From Nitrospira sp. (GTDB taxonomy: Bacteria > Nitrospirota > Nitrospiria > Nitrospirales > Nitrospiraceae): a stretch of DNA of 32,942 nt. This document shows positions 3,848 to 15,642 of the stretch, in pieces (position 1 is the stretch's first letter; each line of letters opens with the position of its first letter). The notes under the pieces were generated by a model. That model was not told the origin of the DNA. It ran no database searches and saw only the letters and a program-made list of their open reading frames with translations. The DNA lies in NCBI GenBank assembly GCA_016873515.1, contig VGXB01000016.1:1-32942 (forward strand), read 5' to 3'. Made by a program: the position numbers and the translations under genes.

Positions 3848-4777
3848 CTAGAGCTCTTTTATTGACCCCATGCATTCCGCGAGCGAGCGATACCCCTTCC
3901 GTACCAGCAAAGCCGTCAACTCATTCTTAAGCCGGTTGAACACCCCCAGCCCCTCTTCCACCAGCACGGTGCCGACCTGCACGGCGGATGCGCCGCACAA
4001 GACATGTTCAAACGCATCTACCCCATCCACAACACCGCCGGTCCCAATGATCGGAATGTTCCCCTGAAACAGCTTGTAGAACGCACGGACGTTCGCCAGC
4101 GCAACCGGCTTGATGATGCGGCCCCCTAATCCGCCAAATCCACCTTTCGGCTTGATCGCCACAGCTTCCCGCTCCGGATCGACGACCAGTCCGTTGCCCA
4201 CAGAATTAATCATGTTCAGAAAATCGACCCCGTGCCGTCCAATCACTTTTCCCATGACGTCATGATGGGCAGGATCAAAATATGGCGGAAGCTTCAGACC
4301 CATCGGGACCGTAATGAGACTCCGCACCCGCTTGATCACCCGCTCGGACGTGTCAGGGTCGTATCCAATTTGCGGTTTGCCCGGAATGTTCGGACATGAG
4401 AGGTTTACTTCGATAAGGTCAGGTTGCGCGGCGTTGAGCACTGCGGCAATGGTCGGAAAATCATCCTCGCAGAGTCCCGCCACACTGGCAATGACTGGCT
4501 TGCCGTATCGTTTGAGGTCAGGGATCAATTCGGCATAGGCTTGGTAGCCAAGATTTGGCAAACCCATGGAATTAATCGAGCCACCGGGAAACCCGTAATA
4601 GCGCGGTTCAGGATTTCCCTGCCTCGGTTCGACCGTCATCGACTTGGTGACGATCGCCCCCGCACCGGACTTCCCAAGCGCGACCAGCTCCTCTCTCGTA
4701 ACACAGAGGGCTCCCGCCGCGTTCATGAAGCAGTTGGGGAATCGAACGCCGGCAATCGTGGTTGATAGATCCGTCAT
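3848..4777 (-). CDS. pyrD: Dihydroorotate dehydrogenase, class 1A
   Basis: This enzyme oxidises dihydroorotate to orotate in pyrimidine synthesis. Class 1A enzymes are cytosolic FMN homodimers that classically use fumarate as electron acceptor. The assignment rests on the NLSCPN(I)PGKPQ block with the catalytic Cys, the LKLPPYFD segment, the NMINSVGNGL and IKPKGGFGGLGG FMN/substrate loops, the IIGTGGV phosphate-binding motif and the FEHVLCGASAVQVGT C-terminus, all arranged as in the Lactococcus-type 1A enzyme. The frame extends upstream to 4840, but the correct start is ATG 4777: it forms an ATGA overlap with the stop of the upstream ABC ATPase and gives a family-typical 309 residues. Its position between an ABC ATPase and an FtsX-type permease is unusual. 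Whether this is the cell's only DHOD cannot be judged from the window. Confidence 0.93.
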   Translation of the reverse strand: MTDLSTTIAGVRFPNCFMNAAGALCVTREELVALGKSGAGAIVTKSMTVEPRQGNPEPRYYGFPGGSINSMGLPNLGYQAYAELIPDLKRYGKPVIASVAGLCEDDFPTIAAVLNAAQPDLIEVNLSCPNIPGKPQIGYDPDTSERVIKRVRSLITVPMGLKLPPYFDPAHHDVMGKVIGRHGVDFLNMINSVGNGLVVDPEREAVAIKPKGGFGGLGGRIIKPVALANVRAFYKLFQGNIPIIGTGGVVDGVDAFEHVLCGASAVQVGTVLVEEGLGVFNRLKNELTALLVRKGYRSLAECMGSIKEL

Positions 4778-5472
4778 GATGGCACCGGTTCGGACACCTG
4801 CACCGTACGCTCGACCAATCGCCCATCCTGCATCGTCCAAGTATAATCGGCAGTCTGCGCTGCCTGTTCACTATGAGTAACGAGCAGCACCGTCTGCCCA
4901 CCGGCCTTTGCCAACGACTTCATGAGCATCATGATGTCCGCTCCCTGATGCGAATCGATATTGCCGGTGGGCTCATCCGCCAAGAGCAGCCGCGGCTGAT
5001 GCACCAAGGCCCTGGCGATCGCCACCCGCTGTTGTTCGCCACCGGACAACTCGCCGGGCCGATGGTGCTTCCGTCTGGTCATCCCCACCATCTCCAGCAA
5101 TTCTTCCACACGTATCGCCGCCTCACGTCCCCCCTCCCCGCGTAGGAGCAAGGGCAGTACGACGTTTTCTTCCGCCGTCAAACCAGGAACTAAATGAAAG
5201 GCCTGAAAGACAATCCCAATCGTTTCACGCCGAATCTTCGTCCATTCGGCGCTGGTAAATTGACGAGTGGATCGGCTCTCAATCAGGATCTCGCCCGACG
5301 TTGGCTGATCCAATCCTGCAATCAGATTCAACAAGGTACTCTTCCCGCAGCCGCTTGGCCCGACGAAGGCGCAGAACTCTCCCCGCCCGATTTCCAGACT
5401 GACATCGATCAACGCGGAGACGGTCGTCTCGCCACGCATATAGGTTTTTGACACCTGTGTGAGGCTCACCAT
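4774..5472 (-). CDS. LolD/MacB-type ABC transporter ATP-binding protein, 232 aa
   Basis: This is a cytoplasmic ATPase subunit of the LolD/FtsE/MacB group. It shows Walker A GPSGCGKST at about residues 38-46, a Q-loop with VFQAFHLVPGLT near 90, the signature [15 protein letters not shown] near 140, Walker [13 protein letters not shown] near 160, and the H-loop in LLVTHSEQ near 195. The length of 232 residues is typical. The FQ-F-L-P-L-TA-EN pattern is characteristic of ATPases that pair with FtsX-type permeases, so its natural partner is the permease at 912-3527. The stop codon overlaps the pyrD ATG (ATGA), implying coupled translation. No convincing promoter was seen in the 167 bases separating it from the divergently oriented comFC remnant. 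Confidence 0.92.
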   Translation of the reverse strand: MVSLTQVSKTYMRGETTVSALIDVSLEIGRGEFCAFVGPSGCGKSTLLNLIAGLDQPTSGEILIESRSTRQFTSAEWTKIRRETIGIVFQAFHLVPGLTAEENVVLPLLLRGEGGREAAIRVEELLEMVGMTRRKHHRPGELSGGEQQRVAIARALVHQPRLLLADEPTGNIDSHQGADIMMLMKSLAKAGGQTVLLVTHSEQAAQTADYTWTMQDGRLVERTVQVSEPVPS

Positions 5473-5639
5473 CGGAACGACACTCCATTCTCCACCTATA
5501 CACCATTTAGGTGAATGTGCTCAGCGCGACGCACTCGCTCTCGTATAGCACAACCGCTCAGAACGCGACAACCTTGACAGATGAGGCTCGTACCCCCTTA
5601 AAGATTCTCTCGACACCACTCCTGTCTTACAGGTGCTGG

Positions 5640-6444
5640 ATGACCCTCCCCATCTCAACATCAATTCTTGGGTTACTACGTCCGGCTGTCTGATTTCTCC
5701 TGCCGGTTGAGTGCGTGGCCTGCCATACGCCATTAATCAATGATCCGATACCGTATTTCTGCGCCACATATTGGAATAATATTGCACCGCCCAGTCTCGC
5801 ACGATGCGCGTGCCGTAACCATCCATTCGTTTCTCCCATCGCCACAACCTATAGTCCACCGCATCCCTGCCAATCATGCCATAAACGCCCCCCTCCTATA
5901 CCAAAGCCTGGACGCTCTATCTCTATCGGCTCCTTCTGCAAGATGTGCGATTTGCCTATTCAAATCCAGCGGCAAAGTCTCGCTGGCAGATCCATAACCC
6001 CGTCTCATGATCAACTGACTTCCGCCACTGGAGGCTATCGACCGGATCATCCCCGTCTCGTTGTACGCCGAGCGGCTGCGCGAGTGAGTATGCAATCAAT
6101 CGCTACTTCTCGCCGACAGGATCAACCGGACTCTCACCGTCCCGGTCTCTAGCACGGCATTGATTTGAATTGCCCTGGTACCGCCTCAGACGGCACTCTC
6201 CCGGAGAGAGCAGCTGAACGATCTCCGTGGAGCCCTTGCGGTACCACGGTCCGCTTCCATCACGGACAAATGTCTACTACTGATCGATGATGTCCTGACA
6301 ACCGGCACTACGGTAAACGTCTGCGCGAAAACTCCGTGCAAGGGTCGCTCCAGCCACGTCTTCGTCCTAACACTCGGTCGCACTGTGAACACAAATCACA
6401 TTCCCGACCCAATATTTGCTCAGCGGAAGCTTCATCTCTTGTGA
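5640..6444 (+). pseudogene. comFC: Decayed comFC-type phosphoribosyltransferase gene
   Basis: Reading the three plus frames in turn reconstructs a ComF-family protein (zinc-ribbon N-terminus plus PRTase domain, involved in natural transformation). Frame of 5640: FLLPVECVACHTPL, then DPIPYFCATYW and HPFVSPIA...CQSCHKRPP. A shift near the C-run at about 5888 leads to YTKAWTLYLYRLLLQD, and a second shift near 5943 leads to CLFKSSGKVSLADP. The same frame continues with IDRIIPVSLYAERLRE, NQSLLLADRINRTLTVPV and the PRPP-binding motif LLLIDDVLTTGTT at about 6277-6309, ending at TGA 6442-6444. In-frame stops lie at 5691-5693, 5995-5997, 6016-6018, 6085-6087 and 6166-6168. One zinc-ribbon Cys is replaced by Tyr (CATYW). 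With five stops and two frameshifts, sequencing error is an unlikely explanation. Confidence 0.82.
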
Positions 6445-6461
6445 CCTGTGTGAGGAAAAAT

Positions 6462-6816
6462 ATACCGATTTATGAATATCAGTGGCACGACTGCCGAGCA
6501 CGAAGTGCCGTGCTGATTCTCGGTCTCCGCAATCAAGCCTCGGTAACCTGTCCCCACTGTGATAGCTTCCAGATGGACCATCTGCTGCCTCAATTTTCTG
6601 CACCAAAATCCAAAGAAATACGGTTTGAATCGCTGGCGAACCCCCACGATCTTGGTGGATTGGGCGAAAACGATTCAAACAGCATGGCCCGCTTCATGAA
6701 AAAAATGGGGGACGAGACGGGGGGGAGAGGAGGGGAATGTTGGTCCGGAGATCGAGACAATGATAGACCAAACTCAAGACAGTGGCAATTTATCAGCAGG
6801 CATTAACAGTCAGTGA
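6462..6816 (+). pseudogene. Decayed FmdB-family zinc-ribbon gene
   Basis: The translation from 6462 begins IPIYEYQWHDC, matching the FmdB family opening M-P-I-Y-E-Y-x-C-x-x-C, and continues with VTCPHC (second zinc knuckle), LESLANP-like and RFMKKMGDE segments found in small FmdB regulators. Three lesions are visible. The expected ATG is ATA (6462-6464), although an AGGA Shine-Dalgarno element sits at 6453-6456. The first knuckle Cys is Trp. A run of seven G at about 6719-6725 shifts the frame: with six G the sequence would continue EEGNVGPEIETMIDQTQD and stop at 6814-6816. An alternative reading is a still-translated 118-residue variant from GTG 6450 to TAA 6804-6806. It lies 17 bases after the comFC remnant, so the two probably formed one operon and decayed together. 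Confidence 0.66.
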
Positions 6817-6838
6817 CAGGTATCGTCATACATTTTCC

Positions 6839-6866
6839 TTGACAATTTTCTGCTGATCCTTAAAAT
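6839..6866 (+). promoter_or_regulatory. Sigma70-like promoter for the HTH-mraZ-rusA unit
   Basis: TTGACA at 6839-6844 is a perfect -35 element. It is followed after 16 bases by TAAAAT at 6861-6866, which matches the -10 consensus at five of six positions. The predicted transcript would start near 6873 and read into the HTH gene and mraZ. Confidence 0.6.
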
Positions 6867-6903
6867 AAACGTACGGTCGGGAGCGGTATGATTCAATCTG
6901 GTT

Positions 6904-7125
6904 GTGATGATCATGCCTGGTCGCATGATGGAGACGTCCCCCAACAGCGAATTAATGACGTTGGTGGAGACTTGCCAATATCTCAAGATCACACCACGCA
7001 CGCTTTATCGCTACCTGCAGACCAGGCGGTTGCCGGCTTTCAAGCTCGGAAAAGAATGGCGATTTGTACGTACGGATTTAGAACAGTGGATTCGTGACCA
7101 GACCCGAAATGCCATAGACGTGTAA
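6904..7125 (+). CDS. Excisionase-family (MerR-like) HTH DNA-binding protein
   Basis: The 73-residue product contains one compact winged-helix domain of the excisionase/HTH_17 type: TLVETCQYLKITPRTLYRYLQ (recognition helix region), then RRLPAFKLGKEWRFVRTDLEQWI (the wing and closing helix). Proteins of this class bind short DNA sites as small regulators. The start is uncertain: ATGs at 6904, 6910, 6922, 6925 and 6955 are all in frame and none has a good Shine-Dalgarno. The ATG at 6888 that follows a GGGAG sequence is in a different frame. The gene lies downstream of a strong promoter and 15 bases before mraZ, so the two are probably cotranscribed. The targets are unknown. Confidence 0.85.
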   Translation: MMIMPGRMMETSPNSELMTLVETCQYLKITPRTLYRYLQTRRLPAFKLGKEWRFVRTDLEQWIRDQTRNAIDV

Positions 7126-7140
7126 ACTAGGAAATTCTCC

Positions 7141-7581
7141 ATGTTTGCTGGCGAATATCTCTGTAAGGTGGATGAGAAAGGACGATTCATTGTCCCCTCA
7201 CCCATTCGCGAACAGATCGAATCTGGAGGGCAGGCTGTCGTCTTCCTCAAAGGCCTGGAGCAGTCGCTGCTCATCTATTCCACTAAGGAATGGGAGCAAG
7301 TGCTCGAACGGACCAAGACTTCATTGGATGAAGACCAAAGCCGTCTCTTCATGCACTTTGTTGTCTCGGAAGCCGGAACATCCGAGCTCGACAAGGCTGG
7401 GCGGATTTTGATTCCAGGGCGCTTGCGGAAAATGGTCCCTGTCGATGAAGACCAAGAAGTGATTTTGATCGGCCTGTATCACCGTCTAGAACTCTGGAAT
7501 CCCAGCGAATGGCGCCGATATATTGCTCGGACGGAAGACCGCTATGAGCAAAACATGTCGAAGATCATAAATTTGTTATAG
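7141..7581 (+). CDS. mraZ: Transcriptional regulator MraZ
   Basis: MraZ is a ring-forming AbrB-fold DNA-binding protein that normally represses the division and cell-wall (dcw) cluster it heads. The 146-residue protein has the two tandem SpoVT-AbrB-like units: FAGEYLCKVDEKGRFIVPSPIRE near residues 2-24 and SELDKAGRILIPGRLRK near 83-99, the repeated D-x-K/A-G-R signature being diagnostic. The start is ATG 7141. Instead of rsmH and ftsL, the next gene is a RusA-type resolvase whose GTG shares the last base of the mraZ stop (TAGTG). The TGGG-type repeats that MraZ recognises in other bacteria were not found upstream, so autoregulation is not supported by the sequence. Confidence 0.93.
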   Translation: MFAGEYLCKVDEKGRFIVPSPIREQIESGGQAVVFLKGLEQSLLIYSTKEWEQVLERTKTSLDEDQSRLFMHFVVSEAGTSELDKAGRILIPGRLRKMVPVDEDQEVILIGLYHRLELWNPSEWRRYIARTEDRYEQNMSKIINLL

Positions 7582-14939: not shown

Positions 14940-15131
14940 ACAGTTGAACTACTTGGCAAGTTTGTACCTTCATCCAGAAAAATGATTGCAGTCGCGCCGA
15001 TTCAGCTCGATATTTTCGAGCCACCGTCAAAGCTGAGTAGCGCCCACACTTTCTTTTGGAGAGAAGCCCGTCTCCACGTTTACACCGACCAGAGCACCTT
15101 GTACCAATAGGGAGATTTCCACAGCCGCCGC

Positions 15132-15642
15132 TTAGTGATCTTCAGTATCGGCCGATGCGCCCACCAATGGAACCACTAACAGGGCTGCCAAACTCAATGA
15201 TGCCGGGGAATCCCCAACAGCGGATGACTGAAATTTGGCACACAACCCCAAAACTTTTTGATCTTGATGATTGACGGCAAGCATAGCCGACAGGATTGCA
15301 GAGCGGCTTCTTTCACTCCTTGAGCCGTATAAATCTTAGTCAAGGTCCGGTGCGCACGCAGATTCTCCGGACTGAATTTGACTGCCTCTTCGAAAATGGC
15401 CACGGTTTTGACAGACTGATTCAGCTGATCATACGCTCGCCCCAGCGAGACCATAGCCATAATGCACTGCGGGTTGACTTTGAGCTCGTTCTCGAGCACA
15501 CCCGTTGCCTCATCACACATACCGGCCTTGCCCTACTCTTCCGCTAGGGGGAAAATGCCTTTGAGGCAGGCAACGTGGCAACCTCCAGGGCCAAGCAATC
15601 GATTTCCGCCACATTCAAGGACTTGTTGGCGCCGGATCTCAT
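15132..15642 (-). pseudogene. Decayed TPR-repeat protein gene
   Basis: ATG 15642 lies two bases after the coaBC stop and begins MRSGANKSLNVAEIDC, which runs into a TAG in a TTTTCCCCC run (about 15550). Shifting frame there gives PLAEE, then an in-frame TAG, then GKAGMCDEATGVLENELKVNP and a clean tetratricopeptide repeat (MVSLGRAYDQLNQSVKTVAIFEEAVKFSP, with a further partial repeat through TKIYTAQGVKEAALQSC). A second frameshift near 15295 is needed to reach AMLAVNHQDQKVLGLCAKF and a hydrophobic, Ala/Val-rich C-terminus ending at TAA 15132-15134. That is two frameshifts and one nonsense codon. The largest intact piece is 15194-15520. The original protein would be about 168 residues; its function is unknown. 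Confidence 0.7.

Follow-up and report, generated by a model that had tools for sequence, protein, structure and literature searches.

A comFC pseudogene at its ancestral locus in a small Nitrospira genome with broken comEC and dprA

The window, the whole 32,942-nt stretch of Nitrospira DNA analyzed here, carries what we are confident is a true comFC pseudogene at the ancestral locus of a genome-reduced Nitrospira, in which natural transformation most likely ceased to be maintained as the genome shrank. The genome to which the window belongs (G000) measures 1.98 Mb in 83 contigs and is scored 99.84% complete, and because comFC, comEC and dprA are all broken in it, natural transformation is very probably gone rather than rerouted. 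The preliminary description of the locus had allowed either for the absence of transformation or for its use of another protein, and the broken comEC and dprA favor absence. The features concerned are as follows, with positions in the window unless another locus is named.

4774–5472, minus strand: ABC-transporter ATPase gene, flanking, open; synteny anchor, named from its sequence
5640–6444, plus strand: comFC pseudogene, full length, in three reading frames (translation, homology, codon-position neutrality)
5691–5693, plus strand: first in-frame stop (TGA) of the comFC relic (piecewise reading)
5888–5946, plus strand: stretch of the relic with both frameshifts (C run at 5888–5893; second indel at about 5943–5946)
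5995–6168, plus strand: stretch of the relic with four further stops, at 5995, 6016, 6085 and 6166 (piecewise reading)
6274–6312, plus strand: PRPP-binding motif LLLIDDVLTTGTT, readable in the relic (translation; PF00156)
6462–6816, plus strand: fmdB pseudogene (FmdB-family zinc ribbon), directly after comF (homology, codon positions)
6925–7125, plus strand: small helix-turn-helix gene (PF12728), flanking, open
7141–7581, plus strand: mraZ-like gene, open; synteny anchor, named from its sequence
14985–15642, minus strand: TPR-repeat gene, broken into three pieces (comparison with the sister genome)
L151:3041–3584 (contig C30 of G000): remnant of comEC, about 540 bases long, between glmM and mtnA (homology)
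L128:9130–10240 (contig C9 of G000): dprA with two stops and a frameshift, between rng and topA (piecewise reading)

The comFC relic runs from an ATG at 5640 to its natural TGA stop at 6442–6444, as read from a six-frame translation of 5480–7145 and piecewise, and as assembled it contains two frameshifts and five in-frame stops (TGA 5691, TAA 5995, TGA 6016, TGA 6085 and TGA 6166); the single open reading frame required of a functional ComFC is absent from the window. In tblastn searches at E ≤ 1e-3, every one of 30 ComF proteins from relatives aligned with the window, each in one to three pieces (best E 3.4e-65). TIGR00201 locates the relic at E 6.5e-13, reading through three TGA and one TAA; its score falls short of the curated cut-off, which holds for all 59 genomes searched with this model. 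The PRPP-binding motif is still readable, and the piece at 6202–6435 matches PF00156 at E 0.0022, below Pfam's cut-off. In the zinc finger, one Cys is replaced by Tyr (FCATY vs FCxxC in relatives) and another is displaced (CACR vs CARC), leaving no complete Cys finger, as expected of a dead copy. The relic combines a ComF-family match, a PRPP loop and the orthologous position. Like the ComF family (TIGR00201; Helicobacter pylori ComFC, PMC9005727), it has a Cys-rich N-terminal part and the PRPP loop, with full-length similarity to open Nitrospira ComF orthologues, but unlike the family it cannot be translated. The preliminary description was right about the coordinates of the full-length ComF reading, the number of frameshifts and stops and the intact PRPP motif; it had counted one lost zinc-ribbon Cys, where we find two affected. 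It had also proposed a search of the whole genome for a second comFC copy, and the family search of G000 at E 0.001 returned only the relic.

The relic occupies exactly the ancestral place of comF between the ABC ATPase and mraZ. Of 30 loci of relatives within the genus and the order, 28 have comF flanked by the ABC ATPase/pyrD pair on one side and mraZ on the other (the exceptions are L016 and L021); the small helix-turn-helix gene is present in 19 of the 30 and an fmdB match in 10. The names pyrD, mraZ, rusA, macA/B, glmM, mtnA, rng, topA, ftsH and folP were read from the sequences, without a family search. Between the ABC ATPase and comF, the sister locus L037 contains two additional stretches, of about 170 and 180 bases (5000–5280 and 4790–4990), that are absent from the window and from L038–L040.

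ComFC works in other bacteria at the same step as the ComEC channel, helping incoming single-stranded DNA across the inner membrane, and connects this DNA to recombination; ComEC and DprA are required in naturally transformable species (PMC9005727). In H. pylori, according to the same source, DNA entry is blocked when ComFC is lost, the integration of DNA delivered to the cytoplasm is impaired, and the membrane association of ComFC depends partly on ComEC; the ComFC proteins of two other species are reported to interact with DprA. The family search of the window's genome returned no PF03772 match for the ComEC channel. What stands between glmM and mtnA matches residues 58–122 of one relative's ComEC and residues 704–847 of another's, so that the channel domain is gone and both ends can still be recognized. 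A ComEC match was found in 75 of 79 Nitrospira genomes (absent from G000, G015, G029 and G086) and in 48 of the 49 with a completeness of at least 90% and a contamination of no more than 5%, where the window's genome is the sole exception; the match is partial in G003, G006, G013, G085 and G089, and that of G020 (67% complete) contains three stops. DprA (PF02481) is matched in 76 of the 79 genomes, all except G071, G086 and G096; the main match is split in two only in the window's genome, and that of G090 contains one TAA. No intact DprA was found in the window's genome, where the open C-terminal piece matches TIGR00732 below the cut-off. Because this C-terminal part retains a third-position bias (21/26/54), the death of dprA may be the more recent one, or part of the gene may persist. 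Pilus-type ATPases are also scarce, with a single family-level T2SSE match (PF00437, E 4.4e-27) vs 3–13 in each of the other 78 genomes. Two candidate losses in the sister genome G071 were set aside as uninformative: topA, the neighbor of dprA in the window's genome, was likewise not found there, and the homology of its truncated comEC reaches to within about 120 bases of a contig end.

Across the genus, comF is usually present and open. At E 0.001 it is matched in 73 of the 79 genomes (not in G002, G015, G020, G074, G085 and G095), only partially in G067 and G075, and with stops inside the match only in the window's genome. Among the best 80 of 178 loci from a PyrD scan, comF is open in 69 and disrupted at L037, L060, L069, L104 and L115, and at L050 it is interrupted by the contig end. 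Five of these 80 loci have no comF match, of which L042, L067, L078 and L112 begin at or beside the comF place and only L108 spans it. We infer from identical match places that L037 belongs to G071 and L060 to G067; the comF of both is disrupted, with no internal stop in the family match. The genomes of L060, L069 and L115, all MAGs, have a disrupted comF yet keep ComEC and DprA matches without stops, and G002 (at least 90% complete) keeps ComEC and DprA matches without a comF match, so the state of comF alone does not prove the loss of transformation. The preliminary description had taken comFC loss to suggest that transformation is absent; the wider loss of the module agrees with this, and the three genomes show that a broken comF is weaker evidence by itself.

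The fmdB gene directly downstream of comF is also dead in the window, having lost its start codon and one zinc Cys and acquired a frameshift near its end; the sister's copy matches TIGR02605 above the cut-off. When the window was compared with the sister genome in single frames, three genes were broken (comF, fmdB and the TPR-repeat gene, which in the sister is one intact 224-aa frame at L130:8342–9016) and, by our count, 20 others could each be aligned in a single frame along most of the gene. Open reading frames cover 0.828 of 13 stretches of the window's genome (L135–L147, 260 kb), vs 0.860 in G071 (100 kb) and 0.897 in G105 (83 kb); the value for G108 is 0.888. The lower coverage relative to the two sister genomes suggests more decaying genes and looks like erosion in progress. 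Together with the broken TPR gene, and with the 9 of 51 compared orthologues that are broken, split or incompletely matched, it is what would be expected if comF and fmdB had been lost to general genome erosion rather than because transformation itself had stopped being worthwhile. We consider this reading the less likely one, since three transformation genes at three separate loci were hit in a genome that is nearly complete by score, and coverage is higher in three pieces of that genome selected for the genes they carry (0.920, 0.909 and, for the window itself, 0.888). General erosion and a loss of transformation upkeep are compatible readings.

Six other phosphoribosyltransferase-domain genes are open in the window's genome, and one of them could in principle let transformation persist after the death of comFC. 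We regard this as very improbable, as none of the six reaches E 0.001 with the ComF model, the ComEC channel has no match beyond the remnant at the comEC locus, and dprA is broken.

To place the loss in time, we used a tree of three concatenated proteins, built from the 70 of the best 80 loci (of 178) with sufficient length. On it, the window groups first with L037 (support 1.0) and next with L038 and L039, close relatives in which comF is open. Changes unique to the window are spread evenly over the codon positions of comF (26/25/24 at positions 1/2/3; 75 in 801 columns), as opposed to 55/38/154 in its open neighbors (p = 1.25e-5; six neighbors were taken in and macB left out), and those in fmdB, at 15/10/11, also differ from the neighbors (p = 0.0015). 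The even spread identifies the decay of comFC as neutral and not assembly noise, and the rate of change in comF, 0.094 per site, is close to the neighbors' third-position rate of 0.087, such that comF was probably drifting along most of the branch that leads to the window. The changes unique to L037, by contrast with those of the window, number 2/1/15 in comF and 41/12/95 in its neighbors, which do not differ (p = 0.26), and this copy was probably under purifying selection on its own branch until recently. Because L037 also has none of the window's five stops, most of the decay of comFC is younger than the split between the two. L037 comF carries one frameshift, in the C run and in the opposite direction to the window's; the run itself differs in length between the two (L037:4522–4529 vs 5888–5893 in the window) and is likely a slippage hotspot in both sister lineages. 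A frameshift common to the two was considered and rejected, as run lengths and shift directions differ. The claim of the preliminary description that comFC was lost in this lineage is borne out by the neutrality on the window's branch, by the single broken copy in a genome of such high completeness, and by the open comF of L038 and L039. That the lesions are instead assembly or consensus errors in an intact gene, as the 83 contigs and the placement of one frameshift in a C run (where errors are typical) might suggest, is the least probable reading of all, given the even spread of 75 changes over codon positions, the 20 other window genes that match the sister in one frame, and the breakage of comEC and dprA on two other contigs.

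All three genes are disabled where they stand: stops interrupt both comFC and dprA, together with two frameshifts in the former and one in the latter, and an internal deletion has removed the channel domain of comEC. In our preferred reading, of a lineage that stopped maintaining transformation, this upkeep would have ceased during genome shrinkage (pilus-type ATPases, too, are almost absent), and comFC and the downstream fmdB would then have drifted at an approximately neutral rate. That the ancestor was transformable, that its descendant is not, and the order of losses are all inferences; the literature searched held no demonstration of transformation in any Nitrospira.

A comparable pattern appears in a distant clade. 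L104, a Baikal record, retains comF residues 201–268, whereas L108 retains approximately residues 2–61 at its locus (a weak protein match, E 4e-6), backed by a DNA match of 81.5% across 211 bases, the comF start among them. As different ends of comF are retained, and as comF is open in L094, a close relative and the sister of L104 (support 1.0), the losses were probably separate. G108, the 1.8-Mb genome of L108, in which comF was examined at the locus only, has no ComEC or DprA match, which together with the comF stub suggests a parallel loss. The same two matches are absent from G107, the 1.7-Mb genome of L104, but this is weak evidence because the assembly is partly masked: three of the five contig pieces examined are all N and a fourth is N for 7,500 of 20,000 bases; for L104 we therefore rely on the comF remnant. 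G109, the 2.3-Mb genome of L094, has ComEC and DprA matches, both without stops. We tentatively raise the possibility that loss of comEC, comFC and dprA is a recurrent step in Nitrospira genome reduction, taken in the window's lineage and separately in the clade of L108 and L104, and that the C run of comF in the window's own clade may have been the slippage site at which decay set in twice.

A lineage with a disrupted comEC has been described in Piscirickettsia salmonis, where comEC is broken up by transposable elements but dprA and other genes are intact (PMC12955456); the window's genome differs in that all three genes are broken, comEC by internal deletion. Its small size resembles that of the streamlined Great Lakes Nitrospira, which have about half the usual genome size (median 1.83 Mb) and are reported to lack pilus motility (PMC9239080). 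Those genomes are described as having few pseudogenes and a higher coding density, in contrast to the lower open-reading-frame coverage of the window's genome compared with two relatives, and competence, ComEC and DprA do not appear in the main text of that report. Our literature searches returned no account of competence loss in Nitrospira, which does not prove that none exists.

The death of comFC described here is a familiar kind of event, a pseudogene in a genome that is shrinking. As an instance it is new, well supported and specific to this lineage, and it belongs to the loss of an entire module. Most of the Nitrospira genomes examined keep this module (comF in 73, comEC in 75 and dprA in 76 of 79), which implies that they benefit from it. 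With comF, comEC and dprA all dead in one lineage, beside close relatives that keep them, there is a natural experiment that asks whether DNA uptake was lost before or after genome shrinkage and whether homologous recombination was reduced with it; population metagenomes could address both questions.
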